NCBI GenBank assembly: GCA_937997485.1
Contig: CALKTH010000042.1
Location: forward strand, 1 to 64,000
DNA: 64,000 bases
DNA from: an uncultured Acidimicrobiales bacterium
GTDB lineage: Bacteria; Actinomycetota; Acidimicrobiia; Acidimicrobiales; SZUA-35
Direction: 5' to 3'
Made by a program: the position numbers and the translations under genes. The notes below the pieces were generated by a model. That model worked only from the letters and a program-made list of their open reading frames with translations. It did not search any database and was not told where the DNA came from. Below, piece by piece: positions 21,265 through 61,509 of the stretch (position 1 is the stretch's first letter; each line of letters begins with the position of its first letter).

Positions 21265-21930
21265 TCAGTCGTCGTCGGCACCACCGGCGCCGGCCAGGCG
21301 ACTGGCTTCGGTTGCTGGCGCGTACGTTCGGTGAGCGAACGCTCGCAGTTGCTCGAAGACGGCCTCGTCGAGCACAACCCGCAGGACCCGCTCGGGCCGC
21401 GCCGGGGCGGTTTCCATGCGAGTCGGGCGCGAGATCAAGACATCGACCGGGCCGTCGAGTGGCGACATTGTTACCGAAGGCGAGATCTCTAGGAGCGAGC
21501 CGTTTGGTGCGATCGAGCAGCTTCTGTTTGACCACTCGACGAGGTAGCCCCGGCCGGTGTCTGGCTCTTGTTCCGTTGTCGCTCGACCAGCCCGAAGGCT
21601 GGATGCCAGAAACGGAGCAATGAGCAACGGCTCGAATGTCGGCCCGATCTCGAGTTGGCTGCATCCTGCTTCGTCCGCGATCGAGACTCCGACGCACACG
21701 GGGCACAAACCGCTCCCGGAGGACCGCCATGTCGAGTCCGGCATGCGCTCTTGCAGCGGCACGCCATCGATCTTGTCCAACAGGCGGACGATGATGTCAC
21801 CCGCAGGCGCCCCCGCCTCAGCGATGCGTCGCGCCGCGAACGCGGCCTCCTCGGTCAAGCCCCAGCTGTAACCGCCGCCTCGAAAGGCCTTGGCGACCAA
21901 TGCCTGGAACTCTCCGAGCGACAGATTCAC
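21265..21930 (-). CDS. DUF3726 family protein
   Basis: A 221-residue protein starting at GTG 21930. LSLGEFQALVAKAFRGGGYSWGLTEEA at the N-terminus is the hallmark of DUF3726. It has several cysteines (SGLCPVCVGVS, GCSQLEIG), but no known catalytic motif. The start overlaps the stop of the preceding gene by four bases (GTGA), showing translational coupling to the 562-residue protein and, through it, to the M19-like gene. Function unknown. Confidence 0.75.
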   Translation of the reverse strand: MNLSLGEFQALVAKAFRGGGYSWGLTEEAAFAARRIAEAGAPAGDIIVRLLDKIDGVPLQERMPDSTWRSSGSGLCPVCVGVSIADEAGCSQLEIGPTFEPLLIAPFLASSLRAGRATTEQEPDTGRGYLVEWSNRSCSIAPNGSLLEISPSVTMSPLDGPVDVLISRPTRMETAPARPERVLRVVLDEAVFEQLRAFAHRTYAPATEASRLAGAGGADDD

Positions 21931-23615
21931 GCCGCGTCTTCGACGGTGGGAGCGCCAACGTCGGGGTAGACCCAGCCGTCGGGGTCGGCGGTGGCGAGTT
22001 CGTTGGGGAATGGAGCGCCCTGGAACATCGTGATGCGCACCCATCGATCGGAGCGAGGATCGAAGCGTGTGGCGCCGAAGAAGCTCAGCTTGGCTCGAAG
22101 TAGATCGATAGGGAGCATCTCGGCATCGATGGTGTTGTCGCGAATCTCGGCGTAGGGAGCAGTGGCCAGGACGGCCAGGCGGCGAGCCGTGTGTCGGTGC
22201 TCGGGGTGCTGGCGAAGAAATACTCCGAGCGTGGTGTCCTCATCGAAGTGTGCGAGATCGCCGAACATGAGCGCCGCATCGCGCCCCGGTTGCAGGGGTT
22301 GTTCATAGTCGGCGATCGGCTCCTCGTAGCGCTCGCCCAAGCGCGGCTCGAGCTTCTCCTCGGACACGTACCAGGCTCGGGCCGTCGCCCGTTGTTCTGA
22401 CCAGGCGGTACCAAGCGCCCAGGCGTAGTCGCGCTCGAGTTGTTTGCGCACAGCGGCAACAGTCCGAGAACCATCGATGGGCGCCGGTGCCGCCTCGTCG
22501 GCGTGCATGTCGCTCGTGAGCTCGTCAACGAGATGCCCGTAGGGTTCGAGGAGAAGCGAGACGACCAATTCTTGGCCCTCGACGGAGAGATGTGCCTCGC
22601 ACCAAGTCACGAGCTGATCCCACGCCCAGGCTGCCGTCAGGTCGGTGTTCGCCAGGTGAAATTCGATCTGGTCGAGATCCGCCATGAGGCTGGCAATCTT
22701 CTCCTGCTGGAGTTCATGCGCCGAGTGCCACGTCTCGACGCTCCGACGTGACCGGCGAACGAACGAACGGAACAGCGCGGCATCTTCGGCCGCCGGATTG
22801 GCCACCGAGCGAACTCGCATCAGCGCTTCTTCTCGAGCAGCGATCCAGTTGTTGATGAGCCGAGGATGGGTCATCAGAAACGGTGCCATGCCGAGGCCGG
22901 TCGAGTTGCCGATGCCGAAGCACCGGCGAAGGTCAGCATCGAGGATCGCCGCAGCCGGGTTCTGTTGACGAGCCATGTGCTCCACCAGATCCATCACGAA
23001 GGTGCGAATCAGGTACACCGTCAACATCTCGGCCTGGAATGGACCGAGGAGTTCGGGCCGATCCGCAACGGAGGCTCGATCGGCGGCTCCGAATTTGCCG
23101 CTGCCGTAGACGGCCGTTGTCCGCATGAGGTAGCCGACGTTCTCAATCGTGTCTCGGTCCGGCTGGGCGCCGCTGGCCAGACAATCGATCACCGTGGACC
23201 AAAGGCGAGTCGAGCGATTCGCCCTTGAGAGGGTGAGTTCCTTGCCGGAGACGCGGCCGGCTTCCTGCAGCGGCACGTTCGCTCCGAGGCGCTGAATATC
23301 TGCTTCGGTGGGAACGCCATCGTGCAGAGCAAAGGTGGTGTCCCACGCTGTTGCGATGACTCGATCCGATCGCATGTCATCCGGAAGGTCGTGAGCGAAG
23401 GCCACGAGGGTGTAGGTCCGTTCTGGCGTTGTGGCGGTGTAGAGGGCGACGCCGACACCGCGTTCGTCGATCTCGAATCGAGGGCGGTCGAAGGTCCACT
23501 CTTCGCTTTTCATTCGCCTCAGGAGGGTGCGCATGAACGACAGGCGGCTCTGGTGGAACGAGCCCATGCGTTCCAACCGCATCACCACGTCCGGCGAACG
23601 AAGGCTGATGCTCAT
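21927..23615 (-). CDS. Conserved protein of unknown function, 562 residues
   Basis: I do not recognise the family. The frame is open upstream to 23876 but the start is taken at ATG 23615, where it overlaps the stop of the M19-like gene as ATGA; the upstream part does not look like protein. It is soluble, mixed helical, with notable segments YGSGKFGAADR and GIGNSTGLGMAPFLMTHPRLINNW, and an acidic, Trp-rich C-terminal half. No signal peptide or membrane helices are seen. It is sandwiched between the M19-like protein and DUF3726 by four-base overlaps, so all three probably form one functional unit. Confidence 0.8.
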   Translation of the reverse strand: MSISLRSPDVVMRLERMGSFHQSRLSFMRTLLRRMKSEEWTFDRPRFEIDERGVGVALYTATTPERTYTLVAFAHDLPDDMRSDRVIATAWDTTFALHDGVPTEADIQRLGANVPLQEAGRVSGKELTLSRANRSTRLWSTVIDCLASGAQPDRDTIENVGYLMRTTAVYGSGKFGAADRASVADRPELLGPFQAEMLTVYLIRTFVMDLVEHMARQQNPAAAILDADLRRCFGIGNSTGLGMAPFLMTHPRLINNWIAAREEALMRVRSVANPAAEDAALFRSFVRRSRRSVETWHSAHELQQEKIASLMADLDQIEFHLANTDLTAAWAWDQLVTWCEAHLSVEGQELVVSLLLEPYGHLVDELTSDMHADEAAPAPIDGSRTVAAVRKQLERDYAWALGTAWSEQRATARAWYVSEEKLEPRLGERYEEPIADYEQPLQPGRDAALMFGDLAHFDEDTTLGVFLRQHPEHRHTARRLAVLATAPYAEIRDNTIDAEMLPIDLLRAKLSFFGATRFDPRSDRWVRITMFQGAPFPNELATADPDGWVYPDVGAPTVEDAA

Positions 23616-24601
23616 GCCGACACATCCGATCTCGGGCCGAAGTTCGCATCGAAGAAGCGGTACCAGTTGTCGCCCATGAGCGACTGGACCTCGGCCTGAT
23701 CGAAGCCGACGGCGGCGAGGCCCGCTTCGATGTTTCCGAAGTCCCTGTTGGACTCGAACCAAGACGGCTGTGGCGGAAAGCCGGGAGCCGCTGCAGATCC
23801 TTCGCCGTAGTCCATGGCTTTGGTCCAGCGGCCGACTCGCATCCATTCCACGATGCTGTCTGGCTGGTCTTGGCACAGATCGCTGCCGATGCCGAAGTGC
23901 TCAACGCCGTAGGTCTGGGCGGCATCGGCGACCATCTGGCAGAAGCTCTCCAGCGTGCAGTCTGTCTTGTCCTTCAGATGGTGGGGATACAGGGAGAAGC
24001 CCATCATGCCGCCGTTGTCGGTCACGGCGCGGATCACGGCGTCTCGTTTGTTCCGAAGTGCGGGGTGCCAGACGTGAGGATTGGCATGCGTGATGGCGAT
24101 GGGCCGTTCGGACAACTCCGCTGCCTCGATCGTCGAACGATCGGCCGAGTGGCTCATGTCGACGACCATCCCCACCCGGTTCATCTCACGAATGACCTCC
24201 TTGCCCATTCGGGTGATGCCGGGATCTTCGGCTTCGTAGCAGCCCGTCGCGAGAAGCGATTGATTGTTGTAGCTCAGCTGCATGAACCGGGCGCCCAGCG
24301 TGTGCAGGATCTCGACGAGGTCGATATCAGCCTCGATGGGCGAAGGGTTCTGAAATCCGAAGAAGATCGCTGTCCGGTCTGAGGCCTTTGCCCGGTCGAT
24401 GTCAGCTGCGGTGCGGCCGTGCACGATGAGGTCGGAGAACCGGTCGAACATCCGGTTCCACTTCGACATCTCGGCAACCGTCTCCCGGAAGGTCTCGTGG
24501 TAGACGATCGTGACGTGCACGGCGTCCACGTCGCCGTCTCGCATTTCGCGAAAAATCGATTCCGACCAGTTCGCAAATTGGAGGCAATCAATTCGGTACA
24601 T
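23612..24601 (-). CDS. M19 (membrane dipeptidase)-like protein with altered metal site
   Basis: A 329-residue homologue of renal-type dipeptidases. The second part of the zinc site is conserved: H151 in VVDMSHS, H172 in ITHANP and D241 in GIGSDLC. The usual N-terminal HxD motif is absent; the corresponding segment reads IDCLQFANW. The bridging glutamate position appears to be glutamine (Q84 in FFGFQNPS). It may therefore bind one metal, or act on a different bond than M19 enzymes. No signal peptide is seen. It is the first gene of a coupled three-gene operon. Confidence 0.82.
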   Translation of the reverse strand: MYRIDCLQFANWSESIFREMRDGDVDAVHVTIVYHETFRETVAEMSKWNRMFDRFSDLIVHGRTAADIDRAKASDRTAIFFGFQNPSPIEADIDLVEILHTLGARFMQLSYNNQSLLATGCYEAEDPGITRMGKEVIREMNRVGMVVDMSHSADRSTIEAAELSERPIAITHANPHVWHPALRNKRDAVIRAVTDNGGMMGFSLYPHHLKDKTDCTLESFCQMVADAAQTYGVEHFGIGSDLCQDQPDSIVEWMRVGRWTKAMDYGEGSAAAPGFPPQPSWFESNRDFGNIEAGLAAVGFDQAEVQSLMGDNWYRFFDANFGPRSDVSA

Positions 24602-24679: not shown

Positions 24680-24997
24680 TCAGGTGTCGCTCGGACGCGT
24701 TCGAGCGGCGATCACATGCGAGGCCAGTTCAGAGATGAACAGCACCAAAACGCCAATACCGACGAACACGTAGACCATCGTAAAGACCTTTCCGGCAGCG
24801 GTCTGCGGCGAAAGATCGCCGTAGCCGACGGTGGTGAGTGTGATCACGGTGAAGTACAGGCTGTCCAACCACGAGAACTTCTCGACCAGCCGGTAGAAGA
24901 CCGTGCCGCCGCCGATCAGCGAGGCGGTGACGGCGATCAGGCCTTGGGTGGATTGGTCGGTCGCAAAGCTGCGGAGGCCAGGAAAGATGTGCTTCAC
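24680..24997 (-). CDS. Two-helix potassium channel (ion channel family 2)
   Basis: A 105-residue membrane protein starting at GTG 24997. TM1 spans about residues 18-36, the pore loop carries the potassium selectivity filter TVGYGD (56-61), and TM2 covers about 70-92. This is the minimal KcsA-like pore without any regulatory domain. It would assemble as a tetramer in the cytoplasmic membrane. A longer upstream frame exists, but it overlaps the divergent gene at 25052 and is not channel-like. Confidence 0.85.
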   Translation of the reverse strand: MKHIFPGLRSFATDQSTQGLIAVTASLIGGGTVFYRLVEKFSWLDSLYFTVITLTTVGYGDLSPQTAAGKVFTMVYVFVGIGVLVLFISELASHVIAARTRPSDT

Positions 24998-25051
24998 GGC
25001 GGCGACACTACAACGGCGGATCGACGCTGGCAGCTGGAGTACCGTGCGCCC

Positions 25052-25696
25052 ATGAGCGCTGAAGTCGACGCAGATGTCTCGGTCGTGCGAGGCATGCTCG
25101 AGCAACGACCCAACACCGACTCGGTGGCCCGCTTCGTTGCGAGCGAACACATCATCCGACTCGGGTTGACCTTCGACATCGAGCAGCTTCGCTCAGCGTC
25201 TGACGAGATGTTGGGTTCGTTCCACGACCAAGGCTCCGGTTTCTCCTCGAAGCAGGTGACCGTCAGGCCAGGCGCGACGGAGGTCACCCAGGCGGATCTC
25301 TCTGGCCGCTACTGGCTGCGGCCAAGTGACTCCTACGAGGAGGAGCCTCGAGAAGACGTCGTGGATGAGGCCTCGTACTCCGAACTCCACCCGGACTTCA
25401 CCGGCACGTACTTCGAGATCGTGCATCGAGAGCTCTCCAGCCGCTTCACCCTCGGCCGCATGCGGCTTCTGATGAAGGGCAGCTACAACTGCAATTCTTG
25501 GCATCGCGACCCCGAGCCTCGTCTTCACATCCCGATCTACAGCAACCCCGGATCCCTCTTCGTGGTCAACCATCACTGCACACATCTGCCAGCCGACGGT
25601 TCCGTGTACTTCACGGACACGCGCGGCTATCACACAGCAATGAATGGGGGAGAGGACCGTCGACTTCATCTTGTGGCCGCGCTGGTCTCGGCCTGA
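25052..25696 (+). CDS. Aspartyl/asparaginyl beta-hydroxylase-like oxygenase
   Basis: A 214-residue protein. The C-terminal half has the iron ligands of Asp/Asn beta-hydroxylase-type Fe(II)/2-oxoglutarate enzymes: H151 and D153 in SWHRDPEPRLHIP, H194 in TRGYHTAMN, and an arginine (R203/R204) for 2-oxoglutarate. The N-terminal half is unclassified. The start ATG 25052 is the only good one after the divergent channel gene. The target, protein or free amino acid, is unknown. Confidence 0.7.
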   Translation: MSAEVDADVSVVRGMLEQRPNTDSVARFVASEHIIRLGLTFDIEQLRSASDEMLGSFHDQGSGFSSKQVTVRPGATEVTQADLSGRYWLRPSDSYEEEPREDVVDEASYSELHPDFTGTYFEIVHRELSSRFTLGRMRLLMKGSYNCNSWHRDPEPRLHIPIYSNPGSLFVVNHHCTHLPADGSVYFTDTRGYHTAMNGGEDRRLHLVAALVSA

Positions 25697-45494: not shown

Positions 45495-46718
45495 GTGACT
45501 CTCCAACCCATCATTTCCGAACCCCGCCAGACCGCATACGACGTGATCATCGTCGGCGGCGCCATCATGGGCTCCTCTGCCGCCTGGTTCCTTTCCGACA
45601 AAATGCGCACGGGTGACTTCGACGGCTCCGTACTCGTGGTCGAGAAGGACCCGAGCTACGAGAAGTCCTCGACGGCAGCCACCAATAGCTGCATGCGCCA
45701 GCAATTCTCCAACGAACTCAACGTGAAGATCTCGCGATTCGCCGCCGACTATGTGCGGAACTTCCAGGAGTACACGGGCAATGACCCCGAGATCCCGGAG
45801 CTGGCAGTCAACCACTACGGCTACATGTACCTGGCGGGGGACGAGACCTTCGCCGAGACGTTGCGCACCAACCAAGCAACGCAGGCCCGGCTCGGAGCGG
45901 GAACCAAGATCATGTCGCCAGAGGAGATCAAGGCGGCCTATCCCTTCTACAACGTCGACGACATCATCTGCGGTAGTCACAACCTCATCGACGAGGGCTA
46001 CTTCGACAGCGGCACGATGTTCGACTGGTGGCGCAAACAGGCTCGCCAGCGAGGCGTTGAGTATCTGACCAACGAAGTCGTCTCCGTCGGACGCGACGGA
46101 GATCGCATCACGAGCGTGAGCCTGGCCTCCGGTGAGGTGATCGGGTGCGACACCCTCATCAATGCGGCTGGTCCGCGGGCTTCGCTCGTGGCCGACATGG
46201 CCGGGCTGCACCTGCCCGTGGAGCCGCGCAAGCGCTTCACCTACATCTTCGATTGTGCCGAGGAGCTCGGCATGGACCTGCCGCTCACCATCGACCCATC
46301 CGGCATTCACGTTCGGACAGAAGGCACCGCGTATATGACCGGTTGCACGCCGAATCCGGATCCTGCGGTCGATCCCGATGATCTCGTGATGGACAAAGAG
46401 ATCTTCGAGCAGCGCGTCTGGCCCGTCTTGGCGCACCGCATCCCGGCCTTTGAGCGGATCAAGATCCAGACGCAGTGGGCCGGTCACTACTCACACAACA
46501 CGCTCGATCACAACGTGATCGTTGGCCCTCACACCGAGGTCGAGAACTTCATCTTCGCCAACGGCTTCTCTGGCCACGGGCTTCAGCAGTCCCCGGCCAT
46601 CGGTCGTGGTGTGGCGGAGTTGGTCGCTCACGGTGAGTACCGAGCGCTTGATCTGAATCCGCTTGGCTACCACCGAGTCGTGAGCGGCGAACCGTTCATC
46701 GAGACCGCAATCATCTAG
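45495..46718 (+). CDS. FAD-dependent oxidoreductase (DAO/FOXRED1-like)
   Basis: A 407-residue flavoprotein from GTG 45495. The Rossmann FAD motif is DVIIVGGAIMGSSAAWFL. The substrate-domain segments NAAGPRASLVADMAGLHLP and GHYSHNTLDHNVIVGPH, then ANGFSGHGLQQSPAIGRGVAEL, match the DAO superfamily and are close in style to FOXRED1-like proteins. It would oxidise an amine or amino acid to imine with FADH2 formation. It is in an operon with an SDR and an aminotransferase, pointing to amino-compound metabolism. Confidence 0.87.
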   Translation: MTLQPIISEPRQTAYDVIIVGGAIMGSSAAWFLSDKMRTGDFDGSVLVVEKDPSYEKSSTAATNSCMRQQFSNELNVKISRFAADYVRNFQEYTGNDPEIPELAVNHYGYMYLAGDETFAETLRTNQATQARLGAGTKIMSPEEIKAAYPFYNVDDIICGSHNLIDEGYFDSGTMFDWWRKQARQRGVEYLTNEVVSVGRDGDRITSVSLASGEVIGCDTLINAAGPRASLVADMAGLHLPVEPRKRFTYIFDCAEELGMDLPLTIDPSGIHVRTEGTAYMTGCTPNPDPAVDPDDLVMDKEIFEQRVWPVLAHRIPAFERIKIQTQWAGHYSHNTLDHNVIVGPHTEVENFIFANGFSGHGLQQSPAIGRGVAELVAHGEYRALDLNPLGYHRVVSGEPFIETAII

Positions 46719-46727
46719 GAGAATTCC

Positions 46728-47432
46728 ATGTCTGAAGCGCCTGTAGCGCTTGTTGTTGCCGGCGGTTCCGGTATCGGTGCCGACGCTGCTCGAAAGCTTG
46801 CAGCGGAGGGCTATCGCGTTGGTGTGATGTCCTCGTCCGGGAAGGGTGAAGCGCTGGGTCGCGAGCTCGGTGGCATTGGGTTCACCGGCTCGAATCTGAA
46901 CGTGACCGATCTGGAAGCGTTCGTTGCGCTTGCGATGAAGGAGTTCGGACGCATCGATGGTGTCGTCAATGGTGCAGGTCACGGCCCGAAGGGTTCGGTG
47001 CTTGAGATCAGCGACGAGGACTGGCACACAGGAATGGACTACTACCTGCTCAACGCGGTGCGCATGACTCGACTGGTCACTCCGATCATGCAGGCTCAGG
47101 GCGGAGGGTCGATCGTGAACGTATCGACGTTCGCCGCCTTTGAGCCCGATCCCGACTTCCCAACGTCCGCTGTCTTCCGGGCCGGGCTGGCCGACTTCGC
47201 CAAGTTGTTCAGCACGAAGTTCGCGGCCGAGAACGTGCGGATGAACAACGTTCTGCCTGGCTTCATCGACAGCTTGCCGGAGACCGAGGCCCGCGTCGCC
47301 CGTATCCCTGCGGGGCGCTACGCCCGCGTCGAGGAGCTTTCGGAGGTGATCGCCTTCTTGATCTCGGACAAGTCGAGCTACATCACGGGTCAGAATCTTC
47401 GCGTTGATGGCGGCCTGACCCATGGCGTCTGA
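46728..47432 (+). CDS. SDR family protein with altered active site
   Basis: A 234-residue short-chain dehydrogenase fold protein. The cofactor turn is VVAGGSGIGADAARKL, and VNGAGHGPKG and a serine in NVSTFAAF follow. Where classical SDRs have YxxxK, this one reads FPTSAVFRAGLADF, so neither the tyrosine nor the lysine is in the usual place. The C-terminus (LISDKSSYITGQNLRVDGGL) is normal. It starts 9 nt after the FAD enzyme and overlaps the aminotransferase gene by 11 nt. Confidence 0.87.
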   Translation: MSEAPVALVVAGGSGIGADAARKLAAEGYRVGVMSSSGKGEALGRELGGIGFTGSNLNVTDLEAFVALAMKEFGRIDGVVNGAGHGPKGSVLEISDEDWHTGMDYYLLNAVRMTRLVTPIMQAQGGGSIVNVSTFAAFEPDPDFPTSAVFRAGLADFAKLFSTKFAAENVRMNNVLPGFIDSLPETEARVARIPAGRYARVEELSEVIAFLISDKSSYITGQNLRVDGGLTHGV

Positions 47433-48516
47433 CACGCCTTCGGGTTTCGATCCACCACCGCATCCCTACGACCGGCTCGACGAGATCAAGGCGCTCGCCG
47501 CCCAGCACCCGCTCGGCTTGCTCAACCTCTCCATCGGGGCACCGCACGATCCGGCGCCACCGCACGTCGTGGCGGCACTCTCACAATCCGACCAAGAGCG
47601 CGGGTACCCGCCAGCTCACGGCACTCCGGCCTACCGGGCGGCGGCGGCAGCGTGGTTGAACCGGGTGGCCGGTACCGACATCGCGGCGGCCGATGTGCTG
47701 GCCACGGTCGGGAGCAAGGAGCTCGTTGCTGGCATTCCACACTGGTTGCGGCTCCAGCAACCTGAGCTCGACACCGTGCTGTACCCAGCAATCAGCTACC
47801 CGACCTACGCCATGGGCGCCATGATGGCGGGCTGCCGAGCCGTGGCCGTGCCGGTGGACTCGGAGTGGCGGATGGATCTCGGCGCCATCGACCCAGACGA
47901 TGCCGCTCGCGCGCTGTGCATCTGGAACGCGTCGCCGGGAAATCCAACCGGTGCCATGGACGACCTCGAGGCGCTGGCCGAGTGGGGCCGCGCCCGCAAC
48001 GTGCCCGTGCTCTCCGACGAGTGCTACATCGAGTTCACGTGGGATCGAGAACCGGAGAGCATTCTCCAGTACGGATTGGACGGCGTCCTTGCCGTCCACT
48101 CGTTGAGCAAGCGGTCCAACTTTGCCGGCGGGCGGGCGGGCTTCATTGCTGGCGACGCACACCTCCTGGAGTTCCTGGGTGCCGTGCGTCAACACAGCGG
48201 ACTGATCATCGCCGGGCCTGTGCAGCACGCGGCGATCGCGGCGTACGAGGACGGCGACCACGTGACTGCGCAGCGCGAGATCTACCGCACACGGATGGAG
48301 GCGATGATCAAACGACTGGCCGAGCTCGGAGTCGATTGCGAGATGCCAAGCGGTGGCTTCTACCTGTGGGCGAAGGCGCCGAACGGTGACGGCTGGGACT
48401 TTGCCCGGACGCTGGCCACTGAGCTTGGCGTGGTGGTGAGCCCCGGTGAGTTCTACGGCAACGTCAGCGACGGATACGTCCGGTTCGCCATGGTCCAGGA
48501 CGTTGACGGCCGCTGA
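47422..48516 (+). CDS. dapC: Class I/II PLP aminotransferase (DapC-like)
   Basis: A 364-residue fold type I aminotransferase. HPLGLLNLSIGAPHDPAP at the N-terminus, NASPGNPTGAMDDLE, the DECYIEF aspartate/tyrosine pair, and VHSLSKRSNFAGGRAGF with the PLP lysine are present; the pattern follows actinobacterial succinyldiaminopimelate aminotransferases (DapC). That would place it in lysine and peptidoglycan precursor synthesis, but the neighbours are catabolic, so another amino acceptor is possible. The 11-nt overlap with the SDR gene shows coupling. Confidence 0.82.
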   Translation: MASDTPSGFDPPPHPYDRLDEIKALAAQHPLGLLNLSIGAPHDPAPPHVVAALSQSDQERGYPPAHGTPAYRAAAAAWLNRVAGTDIAAADVLATVGSKELVAGIPHWLRLQQPELDTVLYPAISYPTYAMGAMMAGCRAVAVPVDSEWRMDLGAIDPDDAARALCIWNASPGNPTGAMDDLEALAEWGRARNVPVLSDECYIEFTWDREPESILQYGLDGVLAVHSLSKRSNFAGGRAGFIAGDAHLLEFLGAVRQHSGLIIAGPVQHAAIAAYEDGDHVTAQREIYRTRMEAMIKRLAELGVDCEMPSGGFYLWAKAPNGDGWDFARTLATELGVVVSPGEFYGNVSDGYVRFAMVQDVDGR

Positions 48517-48554
48517 CGGCGATACACGCTGACGGCGACGTCCGCTGCTGTTGG

Positions 48555-49640
48555 CTAGAGCCGCTCGGCTGTCCAGGTGCCAGGCTCGACAAGCTGGCCC
48601 ATGTTGACGTGGCAGCGGATCGTCTCGCCCTCTGTGACCTCCTCGTCGAGACGAAACAGCCGGTTGCCCCAGCTGGTGACGGGGGCAAGCGGTGAGGTGG
48701 TGAGCGAAATCTGGTCGTCAAAGACTGCCTCGAACCAGACACAGAATCCGTCAACGATGGCTTCGCTCGTAGCCGTGCGCTCGACGACATGATCCAGAGC
48801 GAGTGCTTCGATCGACGGCAGCGTGTGCAGATCGAAATCGAGGATGGGGCTGGGAGTGCCGATCGTGGAAGCCACCGAACCTGGCCGCACCCACAGCTGC
48901 TCGGTCCGTCCGTGATCAAACCGGGCGGCAACGAGCGACTGTTCCATCGGCGCCAGATCGAGATCGGCTGGCAGCTCGATGTTCCAGAAGCGACGAACGC
49001 GCATCGACTCGTGGAACGAAACGGGCTCGACGAAGACCCTGAACTGAGCAGGGAGAATCCTGCCGTTGGGTCCGAGCACACGGTCTCGCAGGTCCAGGAG
49101 GTTCTCCACCATGTTCTCGTTGAAGAGCTCGTCGCCCATCTGCTCGTGCAACACGACATCGACGTTTTCTGGAGGGGTGAACTCCCGGCTATTGGCCTGA
49201 ATGAACTCGATATTGGTGATGTTGTTGATCGCTGCGAGCTCACGGGCCACATCGATGAAGTCCGAGTGTTCGACCGCGTACACCTTGGACGCACCCGCTC
49301 GGCTGGCCATCAGCGCCAACAGACCAGTGCCGGTGCCCACGTCGACCACCACGTCACCGAACTCAATGTTTCGACAGATGGCCTGGTAGTAAGCATCGAC
49401 TCGCACCGAGTCGCTCAGCATTTCCTCGTGCTCGGAGAGTCCAGCGAAGTTCGTCTCGTTCTCGAGGTCGTACATCAAGCCCATGAGCCGGTCGCTGGAA
49501 GCGAGGGCTGAGGCGCCTCGACGCATGCCGGATCGAAGGGCTCGGGTGGCGGCCTGTGCGGCTCGTTGCTTCACGCCACGAGGGTAGGGCCGCTGAATGG
49601 CTGCAACCAGGGCGTCCAGTTCTGCCAGATCAATTGGCAA
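48555..49640 (-). CDS. Protein arginine methyltransferase (PRMT)-like protein
   Basis: A 361-residue SAM-dependent methyltransferase starting at TTG 49640. It follows the PRMT architecture: HEEMLSDSVRVDAYYQAI (71-88) aligns with the HEEMLKDxVRT helix of PRMTs, VVDVGTGTGLLALMASRAGA (98-117) is motif I, VEHS carries the ribose-binding acid, and HEQMGDELFNENM (165-177) has both glutamates of the double-E loop, E166 and E175, at the same spacing of nine. The beta-barrel-like C-terminal half (about 190-361) fits too. The THW loop is not obvious. The substrate is unknown. It diverges from a nitroreductase gene. Confidence 0.85.
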   Translation of the reverse strand: MPIDLAELDALVAAIQRPYPRGVKQRAAQAATRALRSGMRRGASALASSDRLMGLMYDLENETNFAGLSEHEEMLSDSVRVDAYYQAICRNIEFGDVVVDVGTGTGLLALMASRAGASKVYAVEHSDFIDVARELAAINNITNIEFIQANSREFTPPENVDVVLHEQMGDELFNENMVENLLDLRDRVLGPNGRILPAQFRVFVEPVSFHESMRVRRFWNIELPADLDLAPMEQSLVAARFDHGRTEQLWVRPGSVASTIGTPSPILDFDLHTLPSIEALALDHVVERTATSEAIVDGFCVWFEAVFDDQISLTTSPLAPVTSWGNRLFRLDEEVTEGETIRCHVNMGQLVEPGTWTAERL

Positions 49641-49678
49641 TTGGAATCGTCGATGAGGGCGATGTCATCATCTGCGGC

Positions 49679-50368
49679 ATGACGACCGAATCGTTCGAAG
49701 ACCTCGTTGGCCGGCGCCGAAGCACGCGTGGCTACAAGCCAGATCCCGTGCCTCGATCGCTGATGGAAGAGATCATTGCCATTGCCAAGCGGGCGCCGTC
49801 TTCAATGAACACTCAGCCCTGGAACTTTCACGTCGTCACCGGTGACCCCTTGGAGAAAATCCGAGAAGGGAACACCGAGCGAATGATGGCCGGCGCAGCC
49901 GTGGACCGGGAGATCAAGATGGTCGACCACGGATACCAGGGCATCCACCGCGATCGACAGGTCGAGATCGCTGTCCAGCTCTTCGAGGTCATGGGCATCG
50001 AGCGCCACGACAAGGAAAAGCGGCAGGACTGGGTCATGCGCGGATTCCGACAGTTCGATGCGCCGGTGTCCGTCGTGGTGACCGTCGACAAAGAGCTGGC
50101 CGATGACACGATCGCTCACTTCGATTGTGGTGCCGCGACCTACGGCCTTGTTCTGGCTGCCACGTCGAAGGGACTCGGCTGTGTCATCAACGGCCAGGGG
50201 ATCATGCAGTCCAGCGTGGTGCGGGAGTACGCCAACATTCCGGAAGATCAGGTGATCATGACCTGTGTGGCGATGGGCTATCCCGACGATTCGTTCGAGG
50301 CAAATGGCGTTGTCTCCCGTCGCGCCGAGAACGAGGACACCGCCGACTTCATCGGATTCGACGACTGA
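49679..50368 (+). CDS. Nitroreductase family protein
   Basis: A 229-residue FMN-dependent nitroreductase. FEDLVGRRRSTRGYKPDPVP (N-terminal FMN phosphate arginines), KRAPSSMNTQPWNFHVVTG and the C-terminal SKGLGCVINGQGIM segment give the fold. A long helical insertion (DHGYQGIHRDRQVEIAVQLF) resembles those in the larger aromatic nitroreductases. It diverges from the PRMT-like gene. The physiological substrate is unknown. Confidence 0.88.
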   Translation: MTTESFEDLVGRRRSTRGYKPDPVPRSLMEEIIAIAKRAPSSMNTQPWNFHVVTGDPLEKIREGNTERMMAGAAVDREIKMVDHGYQGIHRDRQVEIAVQLFEVMGIERHDKEKRQDWVMRGFRQFDAPVSVVVTVDKELADDTIAHFDCGAATYGLVLAATSKGLGCVINGQGIMQSSVVREYANIPEDQVIMTCVAMGYPDDSFEANGVVSRRAENEDTADFIGFDD

Positions 50369-50469
50369 GCGTGAGGCCACCGGTGATGGCAGTGGAGTGA
50401 ATGGCAAAGAGAGCAGGGGAGAGGGCAAACTGACGGCTTCCCTTTCCACCTCCAACCAGAGGAACCTCT

Positions 50470-51924
50470 GTGCCTGACACACTGCTTGATCGCCGCAACT
50501 TCTACATCAACGGGGCCTGGGTCGCGCCGGCCGTTGCCAACGATTTCGACGTCATCGATCCCTCGACCGAAGAAGCCTGCGCCGTGATCTCGCTTGGGAG
50601 CGAAGCGGACACCAACGCTGCGGTCGCTGCGGCAAAGGCGGCGTTCCCGGCATGGAGCATGACGAGCTTGGACGAGCGCGTGGCCCTGCTCGAAAAGCTG
50701 CTCGAGGTCTACAGCGCCCGGAGCGCGGAGATGGCCGAGGCCATCTCGATGGAGATGGGAGCGCCGATTGCGCTGTCTCAGACCGCTCAGGTCGGTGCAG
50801 GCGCCGGTCACATCAAGAACGTGATCCGGGCGCTCAAGGAATTCGAGTTTGAACGGCCCCTCAACGATCGAGCGCCGGACAACGCCATCCTCTACGAACC
50901 CGTCGGTGTGTGCGCACTCATCACGCCCTGGAACTGGCCCATGAACCAGGTAACCCTGAAGGTGGCGCCGGCTCTCGGGGTCGGCTGCACCATGGTCCTC
51001 AAGCCCAGCGAGGTCGCTCCCTTGAGCTCCGCTCTCTTCGCCGAAATGATCGACGAGGCGGGCTTCCCTGCTGGCGTGTTCAACATGGTGCAGGGCGATG
51101 GCGTGGGTGTCGGCAGCCAGCTGTCCGGCCATGCCGACGTCGACATGGTTTCGTTCACCGGAAGCACCCGGGCGGGCGTAGCGATCACCAAGAACGCGGC
51201 CGACAGCGTCAAGCGGGTTGCGCTCGAGCTGGGCGGCAAGGGCGCGAACATCGTGTTCGCCGATGCCGACCCGAAGGCCGTCGTCCGTGGCGTGCGGCAG
51301 TGCTTCATGAACTCGGGCCAGAGCTGCAACGCTCCGACTCGCATGCTGGTTGAGCGCTCCCGCTACGACGAGGCCTTGGCTTCGGCCCAGGAAGTCGCCG
51401 AGCAGACCGCCGTCGACATCGCCAGCACGGAGGGTCGTCACATTGGCCCCGTCGTGAGCCAGGTGCAGTGGGACAAGATCCAAGGCTTGATCGCCAAGGG
51501 TGAGGAAGAAGGCGCTCGCCTCCTCGCCGGTGGCACCGGACGCCCCGACGGTCACGACAAGGGCTACTTCGTGAAGCCCACCGTCTTCGCTGATGTCGAC
51601 CCCGAGATGACCATCGCTCGGGAGGAGATCTTCGGCCCCGTGCTCTCGATTACACCGTTCGACACCGAGGAAGAGGCAGTGGCGATCGCCAACGACACGC
51701 CCTACGGCCTCACGAACTACGTGCAGACCTCAGACAACGAGAAGGCTCGTCGAGTGGCCCGTCAGCTCCGTTCGGGCATGGTCGAGATGAACGGTCTTCC
51801 TCGAGGCGCGGGCGCCCCCTTCGGAGGCTACGGCCAGTCCGGCAACGGCCGAGAGGGTGGCGAGTGGGGCATCGAGGAGTTCCTCGAGGTCAAGTCCGTC
51901 AGCGGCTGGAATCCCGCCGAGTAA
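50470..51924 (+). CDS. Aldehyde dehydrogenase family protein
   Basis: A 484-residue NAD(P)-dependent aldehyde dehydrogenase, GTG start 50470. The catalytic glutamate is in LELGGKGANIVFADAD and the nucleophilic cysteine in NSGQSCNAPTRML. TPWNWPMNQ is the asparagine oxyanion region. It oxidises an aldehyde to the acid. It leads a plus-strand set with a PhyH oxygenase (12 nt downstream) and a second ALDH; a PhyH-generated hydroxylated product breaking down to an aldehyde is a plausible link. Confidence 0.93.
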   Translation: MPDTLLDRRNFYINGAWVAPAVANDFDVIDPSTEEACAVISLGSEADTNAAVAAAKAAFPAWSMTSLDERVALLEKLLEVYSARSAEMAEAISMEMGAPIALSQTAQVGAGAGHIKNVIRALKEFEFERPLNDRAPDNAILYEPVGVCALITPWNWPMNQVTLKVAPALGVGCTMVLKPSEVAPLSSALFAEMIDEAGFPAGVFNMVQGDGVGVGSQLSGHADVDMVSFTGSTRAGVAITKNAADSVKRVALELGGKGANIVFADADPKAVVRGVRQCFMNSGQSCNAPTRMLVERSRYDEALASAQEVAEQTAVDIASTEGRHIGPVVSQVQWDKIQGLIAKGEEEGARLLAGGTGRPDGHDKGYFVKPTVFADVDPEMTIAREEIFGPVLSITPFDTEEEAVAIANDTPYGLTNYVQTSDNEKARRVARQLRSGMVEMNGLPRGAGAPFGGYGQSGNGREGGEWGIEEFLEVKSVSGWNPAE

Positions 51925-51936
51925 CACGCGCCCGCA

Positions 51937-52815
51937 ATGGTGATCGAGGGCCTCGAGATCGTTGAACCATCCGAGATCGAACGAGCCGTCCGGCTCTTCG
52001 ACCGTGATGGGTTCGTTGTCGTTCGCGAGGCCCTCGACGCGGCGCAATTAGAGCTCCTGAGAGCCGGCGTTCTTGACGCCGTCGAACAGATCGTGGCCTT
52101 GGACCGAGATCAGGCCGGCAACCGGGGCTCGCACCGCTACTCCTTCGGTGGCTCGAGTCTCACGAGAAGCATGCTTCACCTCCCGGCGTGGCAGATGCTG
52201 ATCGATCTCCCAACCGTGTCGCCCATCGTGGAAGCCATCTTCCGATCGCCCGACTACATGGTCCGTTCCGCGAGCGGCGACTTCTGTCTCCCGGGAGCCG
52301 AGGGCTATCAACCCCTGCACAGTGACATGCGTGACCGATCGAGCCGGGACCCGGCCAAGACGCCGTTCAGCTCCTTTCTCGATCCGAGAGGCAAGCTGAC
52401 CGTCCGTGATCTTCCCTGTCCGTACGTCTGCGTGAACTTCTTGCCGTTCGAACAGACGCCGTTCAACGGGCCGACTCGGCAGATCCCGGGCACACAGCAC
52501 TCGCTCGAACGCATTCCGACGCTGGACGAGGAACCCGAGTGGATGCGCCAGAGCACGGTGGCCCCTGCGCCAGCGGGAGCGGTCCAGATTCGGGACGTGC
52601 GAGCGTGGCACGGTGGCACGCCGAACGTTTCGGATCAGGTGCGGGCGATACCCAACATGGAGTACTACGCCCCATGGTTCAGAGAGCCGACCGTGCCGGG
52701 CATTTCCTTTGCCGATCATCAGAAGCTGTCTCCGCGAGAACAGGAACTGACGCGATTCCTCGTCGCCGACTCATCCGAGGAACTGACGACTGGTTTCGAG
52801 GTCCGCCCGCTCTGA
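51937..52815 (+). CDS. Phytanoyl-CoA dioxygenase family protein
   Basis: A 292-residue Fe(II)/2-oxoglutarate oxygenase. The HxD pair is H128 and D130 (LHSDMRDRS), distal H225 is in AWHGGTPN, and R236 is the candidate 2-oxoglutarate arginine. RLFDRDGFVVVREALD is the standard PhyH opening. Between two aldehyde dehydrogenases it may open a substrate to an aldehyde by hydroxylation; the compound itself is not known. Confidence 0.85.
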   Translation: MVIEGLEIVEPSEIERAVRLFDRDGFVVVREALDAAQLELLRAGVLDAVEQIVALDRDQAGNRGSHRYSFGGSSLTRSMLHLPAWQMLIDLPTVSPIVEAIFRSPDYMVRSASGDFCLPGAEGYQPLHSDMRDRSSRDPAKTPFSSFLDPRGKLTVRDLPCPYVCVNFLPFEQTPFNGPTRQIPGTQHSLERIPTLDEEPEWMRQSTVAPAPAGAVQIRDVRAWHGGTPNVSDQVRAIPNMEYYAPWFREPTVPGISFADHQKLSPREQELTRFLVADSSEELTTGFEVRPL

Positions 52816-52872
52816 CCCAGCGAGAGACTGAGGAGAGAGAGGCGACGCAGCGCTGCGCAGCGTTTACCCTCC

Positions 52873-54342
52873 GTGCCCGTGACAACTCTCGACATTGCCC
52901 GTGGCGCCCACTTGATCGGTGGAGAGTGGATTTCCACCGGTGCCACCACGGCCAGCATCAACCCTGCACGACCCGATCAGCCTGTCGGCGAACATGTGGT
53001 CGGAGATGCCAGCACCGCGAGTGATGCGGTTTCGGCTGCGGTCGATGCGCAGCGTGCCTGGCGTGCCGCGGGCTACAAGAAGCGGGCCGAGATTCTCGAA
53101 CGCGCCGCCGTGCTGTTCGAAGAGCGGGCAGACGAGCTGGCCATGATCGGCACGCTCGAAGAGGGCAAGATGCTCGCCGAGATGCACGGCGAAGCCATGC
53201 TGTCGGCTGAGACCTGCCGCTACCAGGCCGCCGTGATCAAGATGCCGACCGAGCGCATCTATCCAACGGCCAAGCCCGGCGAGACCATTCGCACCCTGCG
53301 AGCGCCCCTCGGCGTCGTTGGTGTTGTCACTCCCTGGAACTTCCCGATTCTCATTCCGGTCTGGAAAATCGCTCCCGCGCTGGCCGCTGGGAACACCGTG
53401 GTGTGGAAGACGGCGAGCAATACGCCGCTGGTCTCGGTGGCGATTGCAAAGGTCTTCCATGACGCCGGCGTTCCCGCCGGTGCCCTCAACCTCATCCTTG
53501 GGCCGGGGTCGATGGGTGGAGCGATGGTCGCCGATCCCCGCGTCGACGGTGTCACCTTCACCGGGTCGGTGCCGGTTGGCTTCGGCATTCGCGATCAGGT
53601 GACCGCTCGCAACGGGCGAGTGCAGCTGGAGCTGGGCGGCCACAACCCGGCCATCGTGTTCGACGACGCCGATCTCGACGTCACGGTCCCGCTCGTCGTT
53701 GCTGGTGCCATGGGTTCGACTGGCCAGAAGTGCACGGCCACTCGTCGAGTCATCGCGGTCGGCTCGGTGTACGACGAGCTGGTTGAACGCATGTCATCAG
53801 CGGTGAGCGCGCTCAAGATCGGTGATGGTCTGGATCCCAACGTCGGCATCGGCCCGATCGTGGCTCCTGGCGCCCGAGCTGAAGTGGCTGAAGGCCTGGA
53901 GAAGGCCTTGGCCCAAGGAGCCGAGGTCGTCGCCGCTGCGAGCGCGCCGGACACGAGCGAGTGCTTCTTTGCGCCGACGCTGCTCACCGGCACGACAGAT
54001 CTCGACATCTGGACGGAGGAGATCTTCGGCCCCATCAGCACCGTGGTACGAGCAGCTGACGAGGACGAGGCGTTTGCCCTGGCCAACAACACCGAGTTCG
54101 GCCTCTCCGCTTCGGTGTTCACCACGGATCAGTGGCGAGTGGATCGAGCGGTCAACACCCTCGAGGCAGGCATCATCAAGATCAACGCTCCCACGACAGG
54201 TTCGGAGCTCCATGTTCCGTTCGGTGGCGAGAAGCAGTCCTCGGGACACGCTCCTCGTGAGCAGGGCGATACGGCACACGACTTTTTCACCCGCACTCGG
54301 TCGGTCTACATCAACCCGGGCACACCAAATCCCTACGCCTGA
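52873..54342 (+). CDS. Aldehyde dehydrogenase family protein
   Basis: A 489-residue aldehyde dehydrogenase starting at GTG 52873. The catalytic glutamate lies in LELGGHNPAIVFDDADL, the nucleophile in GSTGQKCTATRRV and the oxyanion asparagine in TPWNFPILIPVW. The GQKCTATRR pattern is usual for ALDHs on semialdehyde or ketoglutarate-type substrates, so a dicarboxylate semialdehyde is possible. It follows the PhyH gene by 57 nt. Confidence 0.93.
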   Translation: MPVTTLDIARGAHLIGGEWISTGATTASINPARPDQPVGEHVVGDASTASDAVSAAVDAQRAWRAAGYKKRAEILERAAVLFEERADELAMIGTLEEGKMLAEMHGEAMLSAETCRYQAAVIKMPTERIYPTAKPGETIRTLRAPLGVVGVVTPWNFPILIPVWKIAPALAAGNTVVWKTASNTPLVSVAIAKVFHDAGVPAGALNLILGPGSMGGAMVADPRVDGVTFTGSVPVGFGIRDQVTARNGRVQLELGGHNPAIVFDDADLDVTVPLVVAGAMGSTGQKCTATRRVIAVGSVYDELVERMSSAVSALKIGDGLDPNVGIGPIVAPGARAEVAEGLEKALAQGAEVVAAASAPDTSECFFAPTLLTGTTDLDIWTEEIFGPISTVVRAADEDEAFALANNTEFGLSASVFTTDQWRVDRAVNTLEAGIIKINAPTTGSELHVPFGGEKQSSGHAPREQGDTAHDFFTRTRSVYINPGTPNPYA

Positions 54343-54375
54343 AATATTCGGAGCGGCTGCTGAGTTCGATCACGC

Positions 54376-54786
54376 ATGACGAACCAGCTGGGCAACGGAC
54401 TGATCGAAACAACCGGGAAGGGCACCGCAGCGGAAGCTGCGGATCGCCTGGCCGCGGCGATCGACGGCAACGAAAAGCTCCGGCTTGTTGCCCGAGTCGA
54501 CCACGGGGCGGGCGCGGCCAGCGTGGGCCTTGAGCTAGCGCCCACGGTCGAGATCCTGTTCGGCAATCCGGCGCTCGGCACGCCGCTCATGCACCTTGCA
54601 CCCACGGTGGCGATCGACCTTCCCCAGAAGATCCTGATCATCGAATCAGAAGCCGGCGTTCGGGTCTTGCACAACGATCCCGGGTATCTCGCTGAGCGTC
54701 ACGGCATCCCGTCTGACACGCCTCAGCTGGCCGTGATCTCGGGAGCGCTTCAGAACCTGGCAAATGTCACGGCTGGGCTGAGCTGA
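54376..54786 (+). CDS. DUF302 family protein
   Basis: A 136-residue DUF302 domain. LVARVDHGAGAASVGLELAPT, then EILFGNPALGTPLMHLAPTVAIDLPQKI and LHNDPGYLAERHGI, are the conserved blocks. DUF302 proteins have a ferredoxin-like fold and no established biochemical role. Its 3' end overlaps the convergent LysR gene by 20 bases. It is placed just after the second ALDH with a 33-nt gap. Confidence 0.85.
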   Translation: MTNQLGNGLIETTGKGTAAEAADRLAAAIDGNEKLRLVARVDHGAGAASVGLELAPTVEILFGNPALGTPLMHLAPTVAIDLPQKILIIESEAGVRVLHNDPGYLAERHGIPSDTPQLAVISGALQNLANVTAGLS

Positions 54787-55612
54787 CGGCCGACTCCAGC
54801 CAGGTCGGGAACCAGTCCCACGCCTCGCTCGCCGCGGTATCGACGATGACGTAGGCCCGACGAGTGAACGTCGGTGCCTCCAGGCGGTGAAGCTGCCCCT
54901 CGGCGAGCGCAGTCTGGCAGAGACGGAGCGGTGCATAGGCCGACCCACCGTGCTCGAGGAGATGGGCGAGGCCCAGCACGGCCGAACCGAAACTGAGTTT
55001 GGCAGTGTCAGCATCGGCGTACGCCGCCGCGTGTTCTCGGCCGAATTCGTCACCTGACTCGACGTAGACGTAGCCGGGATCGAATCGTATGGGGCTGGTG
55101 GCATCGGTCGAGACGAGCACGAGTTGGTCGGAGGGAAGCTCCAGCACCTGCCAACGAGGATGTGTGAGCGGCCAGTAAGTGAAGGCCAGATCCACCAGGC
55201 CGCCGTTCATCCACGCCTGGAGGTCCGCCTGCCCACCATGTGACACCGCGAGGGCGAGGTCAGGTTGCTCCGTTCGCAGCAGCTCGAAAAGGTCGGCGCC
55301 CCGTCCCGGCCAGAGATCGGGATGACACCCGATGTTGCACACCGAGGTCACCGAATTCGGGAGCTGCGTTTCCAGCCGGGCCTGACGCCAGAGCCCCATC
55401 ATCGTCTCCGCGCTTCGTGCGAGCCGGAGGCCAGCAGCGGTGGGAGTCACACCTGACTTGTCGCGGTGCAGGAGCTGCTGGCCGACCTCCCCCTCCAGCG
55501 TCTTGAGTCGAGCGGTCACCGTCGACTGACTGACGTGAAGGCGCTCGGATGCGCGCACGAGGCTGCCCTCGTCGAGGATCGTGATGAATGTTTCCAGCGT
55601 GTGCAGATGCAT
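54767..55612 (-). CDS. LysR family transcriptional regulator
   Basis: A 281-residue LysR-type regulator beginning at ATG 55612, with GAGGAG upstream. The winged helix is MHLHTLETFITILDEGSLVRASERLHVSQ, then STVTARLKTLEGEVGQQLLHRD. The effector domain covers about residues 85-275. It diverges from the ALDH gene at 55713, and two adjacent dyads in the intergenic region look like its binding sites. It probably activates the ALDH-LLM-hydrolase-TPP operon in response to a pathway metabolite. Confidence 0.9.
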   Translation of the reverse strand: MHLHTLETFITILDEGSLVRASERLHVSQSTVTARLKTLEGEVGQQLLHRDKSGVTPTAAGLRLARSAETMMGLWRQARLETQLPNSVTSVCNIGCHPDLWPGRGADLFELLRTEQPDLALAVSHGGQADLQAWMNGGLVDLAFTYWPLTHPRWQVLELPSDQLVLVSTDATSPIRFDPGYVYVESGDEFGREHAAAYADADTAKLSFGSAVLGLAHLLEHGGSAYAPLRLCQTALAEGQLHRLEAPTFTRRAYVIVDTAASEAWDWFPTWLESAVSSAQP

Positions 55613-55642
55613 GAATCTCCTCGACGTGAGGGTGCCACAATT

Positions 55643-55667
55643 CAGCAAAGCTGCATTCAACGTGCAG
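55643..55667. promoter_or_regulatory. LysR-type binding dyads upstream of ALDH operon
   Basis: Two overlapping dyads lie between the LysR start (55612) and the ALDH start (55713): CAGC-AAA-GCTG (55643-55653) and CTGCA-ttcaacg-TGCAG (55651-55667). Such short interrupted palindromes about 50-70 bases before the target gene are typical recognition sites of LysR regulators. Confidence 0.45.
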
Positions 55668-55712
55668 AAAGTTTCGATTTCCGGGATCGACAGTCTGATC
55701 TAGCGTCGTCGC

Positions 55713-57197
55713 ATGGCAGCCGAGATCGCAACACAACACATGCTCATCAACGGTGAGTGGGTCGCCGCATCAGATGGGGCGTTCTTCGAGAGTGTGGACC
55801 CCTCGAGTGGCGAGGTCTGGGCGCAGGTCCCGGAGGCCACCGAGGCGGACGTCGATCGGGCCGTGCGCGCTGCACATACGGCGATGACCGAGGGGCCATG
55901 GGCAGGGCTCACTCCCACCGAGCGGGGTCGTGCCCTCCGCCGGCTCGGTGACCTGATGGCCGAGAACTCCGAGGAGTTGGGACGGGTCGAGACTCGCGAC
56001 ACTGGCAAGCTCTTCAAAGAGACCCGTTGGCAGTCGACCTACATCGCCGAGTACTTCCAGTTCTTTGCTGGTGCGGCCGACAAGGTGGGCGGCGAGACGC
56101 TTCCCATCGACAAACCCGATCTCTTCGTGTTCACCGAACGGGAGCCGGTGGGGGTCGTGGCAGCGGTTGTGCCCTGGAACTCGCAGATGTTCCTGAGTGC
56201 AACGAAGATCGCTCCGGCGCTTGCCGCAGGCAACGCCATCGTGCTCAAGGCCTCCGAACATGCGTCGGCTCCACTCTTGGCCTTCGGTCGATTGGCGGCC
56301 GAGGCCGGTCTCCCGGATGGCGTGATCAACATCATCACCGGACACGGAGAGCCGTGCGGTCGTGCCCTCACCAGCCATCCGCTGGTGGCGAAAATCGCTT
56401 TCACCGGTGGTCCAGCGTCGGCACAGCACGTCATCCACAATTCGGCGGCGAACTTTGCGCAGGTGTCGCTCGAACTCGGAGGAAAGTCGCCGTTCATTGT
56501 GTTCGACGACGCGGACATCGCGAGTGCGGTCAACGGTTCGATTGCCGGGATCTTCGCTGCCTCCGGACAGAGCTGCGTCGCCGGTTCTCGCCTGTATCTG
56601 CATGAAGACATTGCCGAGGAGTTCCTCGAGCGGATGACTGAGCTGGTCGGCAAGATCCGGCTGGGAGACCCGCAAGACGATGACACCGACATGGGGCCTC
56701 TCTGCACCCCAGGCCAGCTGGCTCACATTCAGGAGCAGGTTGCTCTGGCCGAGCAGGAGGGCGCCACGATCGTGGCCGGCGGGGCTCAACCAGCCGAGCT
56801 TGGTGGGCTGTACTTCCAGCCCACCATCATCGATTGTCCTCGTCAGGACCTGACAATCGTGGACACCGAGCTGTTCGGTCCGGTGCTGAGCGTGCAGCGC
56901 TTCCGCACGGAAGACGAAGTCGTCGGACTGGCGAACGATACGAAACACGGATTGGCTGCCGGCATCTTCACTCGCGACAGTGCCCGCTCACTGCGAATGG
57001 CAAAGCGAGTGCGAGCCGGCATTGTCTGGGTCAACACGTATCGCGTGATCTCACCGATCGCAGCGTTCGGTGGCATGAAGAACAGCGGCTACGGGCGGGA
57101 GGCGGGGCTCCAAGCGCTTTACGACTACAGCCGACCGAAGACCGTGTGGATGAACATGTCCGATGTACCCCTGGCCAGCCCGTTCGTGCCCCGCTGA
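55713..57197 (+). CDS. Aldehyde dehydrogenase family protein
   Basis: A 494-residue aldehyde dehydrogenase. LELGGKSPFIVFDDADI provides the catalytic glutamate, ASGQSCVAGSRL the cysteine and VPWNSQMFL the asparagine. MKNSGYGREAGLQALYDY at the C-terminus is usual for broad-specificity ALDHs. It is the first gene of the operon divergent from LysR, followed 11 nt later by an LLM monooxygenase; the monooxygenase product may be its aldehyde. Confidence 0.93.
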   Translation: MAAEIATQHMLINGEWVAASDGAFFESVDPSSGEVWAQVPEATEADVDRAVRAAHTAMTEGPWAGLTPTERGRALRRLGDLMAENSEELGRVETRDTGKLFKETRWQSTYIAEYFQFFAGAADKVGGETLPIDKPDLFVFTEREPVGVVAAVVPWNSQMFLSATKIAPALAAGNAIVLKASEHASAPLLAFGRLAAEAGLPDGVINIITGHGEPCGRALTSHPLVAKIAFTGGPASAQHVIHNSAANFAQVSLELGGKSPFIVFDDADIASAVNGSIAGIFAASGQSCVAGSRLYLHEDIAEEFLERMTELVGKIRLGDPQDDDTDMGPLCTPGQLAHIQEQVALAEQEGATIVAGGAQPAELGGLYFQPTIIDCPRQDLTIVDTELFGPVLSVQRFRTEDEVVGLANDTKHGLAAGIFTRDSARSLRMAKRVRAGIVWVNTYRVISPIAAFGGMKNSGYGREAGLQALYDYSRPKTVWMNMSDVPLASPFVPR

Positions 57198-57208
57198 GGA
57201 GTGCTGCA

Positions 57209-58279: not shown

Positions 58280-59096
58280 CCGGACCGAAGACGGCACGGC
58301 CTACGACGATTGGCCGGCGTCGACAGGGCAGGGCACGGCACCCGCGATCGTTCTGATCCACGGCCTCGGTCTGAGTCGTCACTTGTGGGCCTCCCACCTC
58401 AAGGCGCTCACCGGGACGCACCGCGTCATCAACTACGACCTTTACGGCCACGGTGAGAGTGCGCCACCACCCGAGGAGGCCTCGCTTCGCGTCTACGCCG
58501 AACAGATCGCCCGGTTGCTCGACGAGCTCGGGGTGGAGGACGCGGCAATTGTCGGCTTCTCGATCGGCGGGATGATCAATCGGCGTTTCGTGCTCGATCA
58601 TCCGGATCGGGCGAGCTCGCTCGTGATTCTCAACTCACCGCACGACAGGGGAGACGAGGGGCAACGCGCCGTGGAGGAGCGGGCCTCCACTGTTCGTTCG
58701 CAGGGCGCCTTGGCCACGATGGATGCTGCGCTGGCCCGATGGTTCACGCCCGAGTATCTGGCCAGCGAGGGTTTGGGCCCAGCACTCGTTCGGCAGTGGC
58801 GCATGGAAGCCGACGCCGAGAGCTACGCCCAGGCGGCCTGGGTACTGGCTGCCGGCGTGCGGGAGCTCACATCGCCCGAGCTCATCTTCGATCTTCCGGC
58901 GTTGGTGATGACAGGCGAGGGCGACACGGGTTCCACGCCGGCAATGGCTCATGCCATCGCCGCTCAGTTCCGAGACGAAGCACGGGCAACGGCGCAAACG
59001 CTCATCGTGCCTCGATTGCAGCATTTGGGCCTGCTCGAGCAGCCGGAACTCTTCACCAACCCCATTCTCGATTTCCTCGACCGGAGCGTTTCATGA
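58272..59096 (+). CDS. Alpha/beta hydrolase
   Basis: A 274-residue hydrolase. The oxyanion HG turn is LIHGLGLSRHLW and the nucleophile elbow is VGFSIGG with S97. The catalytic histidine is probably in RLQHLGLLEQPELF. This architecture fits 3-oxoadipate enol-lactonase-like and lactone/ester hydrolases. Start ATG 58272 overlaps the LLM gene; the stop overlaps the TPP-enzyme start as ATGA. A Baeyer-Villiger-like LLM product (ester or lactone) would be a natural substrate. Confidence 0.87.
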   Translation: MPSRTEDGTAYDDWPASTGQGTAPAIVLIHGLGLSRHLWASHLKALTGTHRVINYDLYGHGESAPPPEEASLRVYAEQIARLLDELGVEDAAIVGFSIGGMINRRFVLDHPDRASSLVILNSPHDRGDEGQRAVEERASTVRSQGALATMDAALARWFTPEYLASEGLGPALVRQWRMEADAESYAQAAWVLAAGVRELTSPELIFDLPALVMTGEGDTGSTPAMAHAIAAQFRDEARATAQTLIVPRLQHLGLLEQPELFTNPILDFLDRSVS

Positions 59097-60796: not shown

Positions 60797-60827
60797 GCCC
60801 TCGATCGGATGGTGAGGCTGGCCACGA

Positions 60828-61448: not shown

Positions 61449-61509
61449 GGCGCTACTTGTAGCAGAGCTGCCATAACGTATGGGCTTCCCGCTGACGAAT
61501 GGATGATTG

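Follow-up and report, generated by a model that had tools for sequence, protein, structure and literature searches.

A conserved three-gene set with a remodelled M19 metal site and a probable role in betaine-type catabolism

The 64,000-nucleotide stretch of Acidimicrobiales DNA analysed here (the window) carries three neighbouring genes on the minus strand, which encode an M19-like protein of 329 aa (positions 23612 to 24601), a protein of 562 aa (21927 to 23615) and a DUF3726 protein of 221 aa (21265 to 21930), referred to below as the trio. The stop codon of the M19 gene overlaps the start of the 562-aa gene by four bases in ATGA (23612 to 23615, minus strand), and the stop of the 562-aa gene overlaps the start of the DUF3726 gene by four bases in GTGA (21927 to 21930, minus strand), both as described by the first-pass annotation, which had taken them to imply stoichiometric production. 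In related loci the overlap at the 562–DUF3726 junction is kept in 74 of 92 cases, and that at the M19–562 junction in only 25 of 96. Because the latter is not conserved, because a gap of more than 1 kb separates the M19 and 562-aa genes in 20 of the 96 loci (with a BCCT gene inside where checked), and because the gene order varies (562, DUF3726-like, M19 in S. meliloti), a fixed stoichiometry is not implied for the M19-like protein, and this part of the earlier reading was not borne out. On the minus strand, too, a gene for a small K+-channel-like protein (Ion_trans_2, 3e-22; window 24680 to 25150) lies upstream of the M19 gene, with 78 bases between its end and M19; its position is not conserved in the relatives.

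According to a Pfam search, the 329-aa protein matches PF01244 (5e-72; 243 bits, cut-off 26), and judged from its sequence the M19 fold is certain. In strand 1 the place of the HxD motif, a ligand of the α-metal, is occupied by IDCLQF, with Leu-7, Gln-8 and Phe-9 replacing HxD; the codons of D5-C6-L7-Q8-F9, in the place of the canonical DxHxD, lie at 24575 to 24589 on the minus strand. We aligned a profile of the trio M19 proteins with the characterised dipeptidase 3id7. Gln-84 (codon 24350 to 24352, minus strand) falls on the bridging glutamate of canonical M19 proteins, and two histidines and an aspartate are kept, in the window protein the β-metal pair His-151 and His-172 and the C-terminal Asp-241. 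All these residues are as the first-pass annotation had listed them; reading the 329-aa translation by eye, we saw no HxD anywhere. Asp-5, Leu-7, Gln-8, Gln-84, His-151, His-172 and Asp-241 are invariant in 24 trio-linked M19 sequences (alignment A5), and therefore the remodelled site is neither a sequencing error nor due to chance. Distant trio-linked M19 proteins keep Gln-84, both histidines and the aspartate, and vary at Gln-8 (Glu in locus L216, Ser in L218).

Does this site belong to the trio alone? The nearest solved structure to the trio M19 proteins, PDB 2i5g (“amidohydrolase”), has the same ligand losses, and the lost metal site is also seen in M19 proteins of Azospirillum, Halomonas and Salipiger. 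Three such M19 genes are placed in other operons, with ethanolamine ammonia-lyase, sarcosine oxidase and hydantoinase; those at L219 (4953 to 5936) and L222 (4974 to 5957) adjoin the genes for ethanolamine ammonia-lyase and sarcosine oxidase. Since the site is common to M19 proteins of unrelated operons, the lost-metal-site proteins are, on sequence grounds, a wider uncharacterised M19 subfamily in amine catabolism, and the notion of a trio built around its unusual M19 site finds no support, as other M19 proteins have this site although neither partner gene accompanies them.

Neither a Pfam search nor a comparison of its profile with Pfam placed the 562-aa protein in a family, no NCBIfam model was found for any of the three proteins, and the sequence profiles of the 562-aa and DUF3726 proteins gave only chance matches against the PDB. 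The AlphaFold2 model of the 562-aa protein is confident (pLDDT 90.8, pTM 0.92). It has no match below E 0.27 among PDB folds (probability at most 0.16 among the matches listed) and none below E 0.001 among the viral models of BFVD, which makes the protein a candidate new fold in a comparison with PDB and viral models only. A relation to Ldh_2 was considered and rejected, as profile comparison shows none. Apparent fusions of the 562-aa gene (1100-aa frames in genomes G188 and G210) are artefacts, in which long upstream frames run through the BCCT gene.

The DUF3726 protein matches PF12525 (4.6e-11, 42.9 bits against a cut-off of 22.1) and has a conserved C-terminal YAPATxxSR..GAG region. Its predicted structure (pLDDT 90.6) matches Ldh_2 structures with Foldseek probabilities of 0.92–0.99 for the best matches (E about 0.02), and hhalign places it in register with the Ldh_2 profile over 42 N-terminal residues (E 0.0023, probability only 12%). 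In one distant actinobacterium (L130) an Ldh_2 protein is matched over one and the same stretch by the Pfam models of Ldh_2 and DUF3726, the latter below its cut-off, and in another (L129) the third gene of the set matches Ldh_2 weakly, again below the cut-off. From these results the DUF3726 protein is most simply seen as a shortened Ldh_2 relative, with a predicted fold like that of YiaK and AllD. A literature search on DUF3726 found none.

When the 562-aa protein was used as the query against 84,980 species genomes, 293 relatives were returned, the best 80 of which were kept for locus analysis. In these 80 loci a DUF3726 gene is adjacent every time (80/80) and an M19 gene is present in 74, the full trio being found in Acidimicrobiia and Roseobacters; co-conservation was confirmed across two phyla. 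More distant sets occur in other actinobacteria, rhizobia, Vibrio and SAR11-like genomes. Identity of the 562-aa protein to the window copy is 67–78% in Acidimicrobiales MAGs and 59–65% in Rhodobacteraceae, and falls to 47% in Aminobacter and Pararhizobium, 40% in Vibrio and 31% in Sinorhizobium; the protein is also present in Granulosicoccaceae. It was found in 20 of 61 searched genomes among the window's relatives, in 5 of 296 genomes of the wider phylum and in 53 of 385 sampled alphaproteobacterial genomes, SAR11-like ones included. Several of the positive genomes measure 1.2–1.6 Mb, and the trio is contiguous in four AT-rich SAR11-like alphaproteobacterial genomes of 1.2–1.4 Mb (one of them a draft).

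The gene content of the loci, its conservation and the types of transporter are directly observed, as are the folds at the level of prediction. Outside Acidimicrobiia the trio is usually part of a larger operon of catabolic type. The Roseobacter operon consists of LysR, aldehyde dehydrogenase (ALDH), M19, (BCCT), 562, DUF3726 and Ldh_2, one example being without Ldh_2, and that of Vibrio of LysR, RidA, ALDH, M19, BCCT, 562 and DUF3726. The glycine-betaine ABC genes ProX-ProW-ProV follow the operon in Aminobacter and Pararhizobium. SAR11-like genomes (L214, L215) have ProX-ProW-ProV-ALDH-M19-562-DUF3726 in line, with Ldh_2 divergent. Among distant actinobacteria the arrangement is ALDH-BCCT-562-M19 (L127, L128), ALDH-562-M19-Ldh_2-like-MFS (L129), or ProX-562-M19 together with Ldh_2, an alpha/beta hydrolase, an AA_synth protein and a luciferase-like monooxygenase (L130). 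A RidA gene lies near several trio copies, and genes for a sarcosine-oxidase-like tetramer adjoin some of them; N-methyl amino acid dehydrogenases are among the members of that family. The nearest solved relative of the operon Ldh_2 is delta1-piperideine-2-carboxylate reductase (1wtj, 2.5e-54). Plasmid pPGA1_262 of Phaeobacter inhibens DSM 17395 carries two operon copies (L137, L101), one adjoining the sarcosine-oxidase-like tetramer and the other a DMSP demethylase cluster. On pSymB of S. meliloti, a gene for a RuBisCO-like protein, judged by eye from its translation (L104, 1021 to 2277), lies in the vicinity of the divergent trio.

Acidimicrobiia loci showed no conserved neighbours beyond the trio, and none of their trio copies has an ALDH, Ldh_2 or transporter neighbour. 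The window genome holds one Ldh_2, on another contig, with 41% identity to the Roseobacter Ldh_2 and 69% to the trio-adjacent Ldh_2 of L130; its nearest ALDH reaches only 35%, and a further M19 of this type is absent. The window copy thus represents the minimal core, whose role there is taken from its relatives. Elsewhere in the window, a catabolic island (45495 to 61643) encodes an FAD oxidase, an SDR, an aminotransferase, a nitroreductase, three ALDHs, PhyH, a luciferase-like monooxygenase, an alpha/beta hydrolase, a TPP enzyme and an AA_synth protein; the island monooxygenase, hydrolase and AA_synth protein resemble the trio-adjacent set of L130 (25–33%).

The betaine transporters, the ALDH and an Ldh_2 nearest to delta1-piperideine-2-carboxylate reductase make a betaine-type catabolic operon the best reading, and a role of the trio in such catabolism is probable. 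We favour, with somewhat less assurance, the fuller proposal that a betaine-type N-methylated substrate, most likely homarine, is broken down by a pathway of which the trio forms the conserved core. Homarine is N-methylpicolinate, and its pathway is reportedly described in a preprint as an operon, homABCDER, which combines five genes with a regulator, is found in Rhodobacterales, SAR11 and SAR116, and leads to N-methylglutamate. The trio is present in Rhodobacterales and in the small AT-rich genomes that look like SAR11. Homarine leads as the substrate because a paper of 2026 describes a conserved pathway for it, whose operon reportedly has five genes and a regulator; as a specific assignment it stays tentative, at slightly under even chances. 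The 2026 paper, in Nature Microbiology, concerns a conserved homarine pathway with N-methylglutamate dehydrogenase, according to PMC13390433, which cites it. The sarcosine-oxidase-like tetramer could be a sarcosine oxidase rather than an N-methylglutamate dehydrogenase, which would count against the homarine scheme.

We infer the substrate, the order of steps and every catalytic role as follows. A BCCT or ProXWV-type transporter would import the betaine, whose ring the Ldh_2 of delta1-piperideine-2-carboxylate reductase type would reduce and open together with the trio. The 562-aa protein, as candidate new fold, and the DUF3726 protein, as shrunken Ldh_2 relative, may be the enzyme, or enzyme complex, that opens the ring. 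The aldehyde dehydrogenase would then oxidise the semialdehyde, and the M19-like protein might hydrolyse an amide- or formamide-like intermediate at a reduced His-His-Asp site, either mononuclear or metal-free; the product would be an N-methyl amino acid. More speculatively, all three proteins could be subunits of a single enzyme of a novel kind, a new fold together with two catalytically rebuilt ones, that opens N-methylated heterocyclic betaine rings in abundant marine bacteria; we consider this doubtful.

An operon of the same kind could serve another betaine (stachydrine, hydroxyproline betaine, trigonelline or carnitine) by way of a cyclic imine and a semialdehyde. The transporters are general betaine types, a set of Rieske, ALDH and FAD-oxidoreductase genes adjoins a Phaeobacter copy, and the best NCBIfam model for the operon ALDH, below its cut-off, is 2,5-dioxovalerate dehydrogenase, an enzyme of hydroxyproline-type pathways. 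However, the Rieske set is found only beside Phaeobacter copies, and the SAR11-like and Roseobacter distribution fits that reported for homarine, so that we regard another betaine as rather unlikely.

Against the betaine scheme stand the divergent sets of S. meliloti and Neorhizobium (about 31%), which, like L216, adjoin other ABC transporter genes of spermidine/putrescine-like appearance. Together with the related M19 genes that neighbour those for ethanolamine ammonia-lyase and sarcosine oxidase, they would suit a trio that handles polyamines or another non-betaine amine and has recruited betaine transporters secondarily; but the sets closest to the window have BCCT, glycine-betaine ABC or no adjacent transporter, and we hold this to be improbable. 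Still less credible is a reading in line with the suggestion of the first-pass annotation: a new hydrolase of amides or peptides that has the remodelled M19 site at its centre and no link to betaines. The M19 fold and the invariance of the site in 24 sequences agree with it, whereas the same remodelling is seen in M19 proteins of amine-catabolism operons that lack the partners, and the operon context is one of betaine uptake and oxidation. An amide-processing system as such is not upheld; judged by the operon context, an N-methylated compound of betaine type is what is catabolised.

New here are a confident 562-aa model without PDB or viral match, the likeness of DUF3726 to Ldh_2, and the placing of the remodelled site in a wider M19 subfamily. 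Should the 562-aa protein open a betaine ring by a new fold, this would account for the use of a common algal metabolite by abundant marine bacteria, and a DUF family, an orphan protein and a metal-site-deficient M19 subfamily of several amine-catabolism operons would gain a biochemical role.

In number of genes and in distribution, the set of ALDH, M19, 562-aa, DUF3726 and Ldh_2 genes plus LysR resembles the homarine operon as reported, whereas in the window no more than three of these genes stand side by side. The DUF3726 protein shares the predicted fold and the N-terminal sequence register of the Ldh_2 family (YiaK, AllD, delta1-piperideine-2-carboxylate reductase), but has about 200 aa instead of 335 and is without the N-terminal SHG catalytic histidine motif. 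With the renal and microbial M19 dipeptidases (1itq, 3id7) the trio M19 proteins have in common the fold and the His, His and Asp positions, but they have lost the binuclear site (no HxD, Glu replaced by Gln). We take 2i5g to be P. aeruginosa PA5396, which presumably adjoins dgcAB. In the dimethylglycine clusters of Vibrio natriegens and P. aeruginosa a dipeptidase gene precedes dgcAB (PMC12093977), an association with N-methylamine catabolism. A 562-aa or DUF3726 partner is not reported for 2i5g or for these dipeptidases. At the places where most trio members show their characteristic IDxLQ and HAN, 2i5g reads IDGLIIA and HC, and it is without the WMRxGRW stretch that also marks them; yet both share an M19 fold without HxD, a glutamine (Gln-Asn) for the bridging glutamate, and the retained His/His/Asp set.
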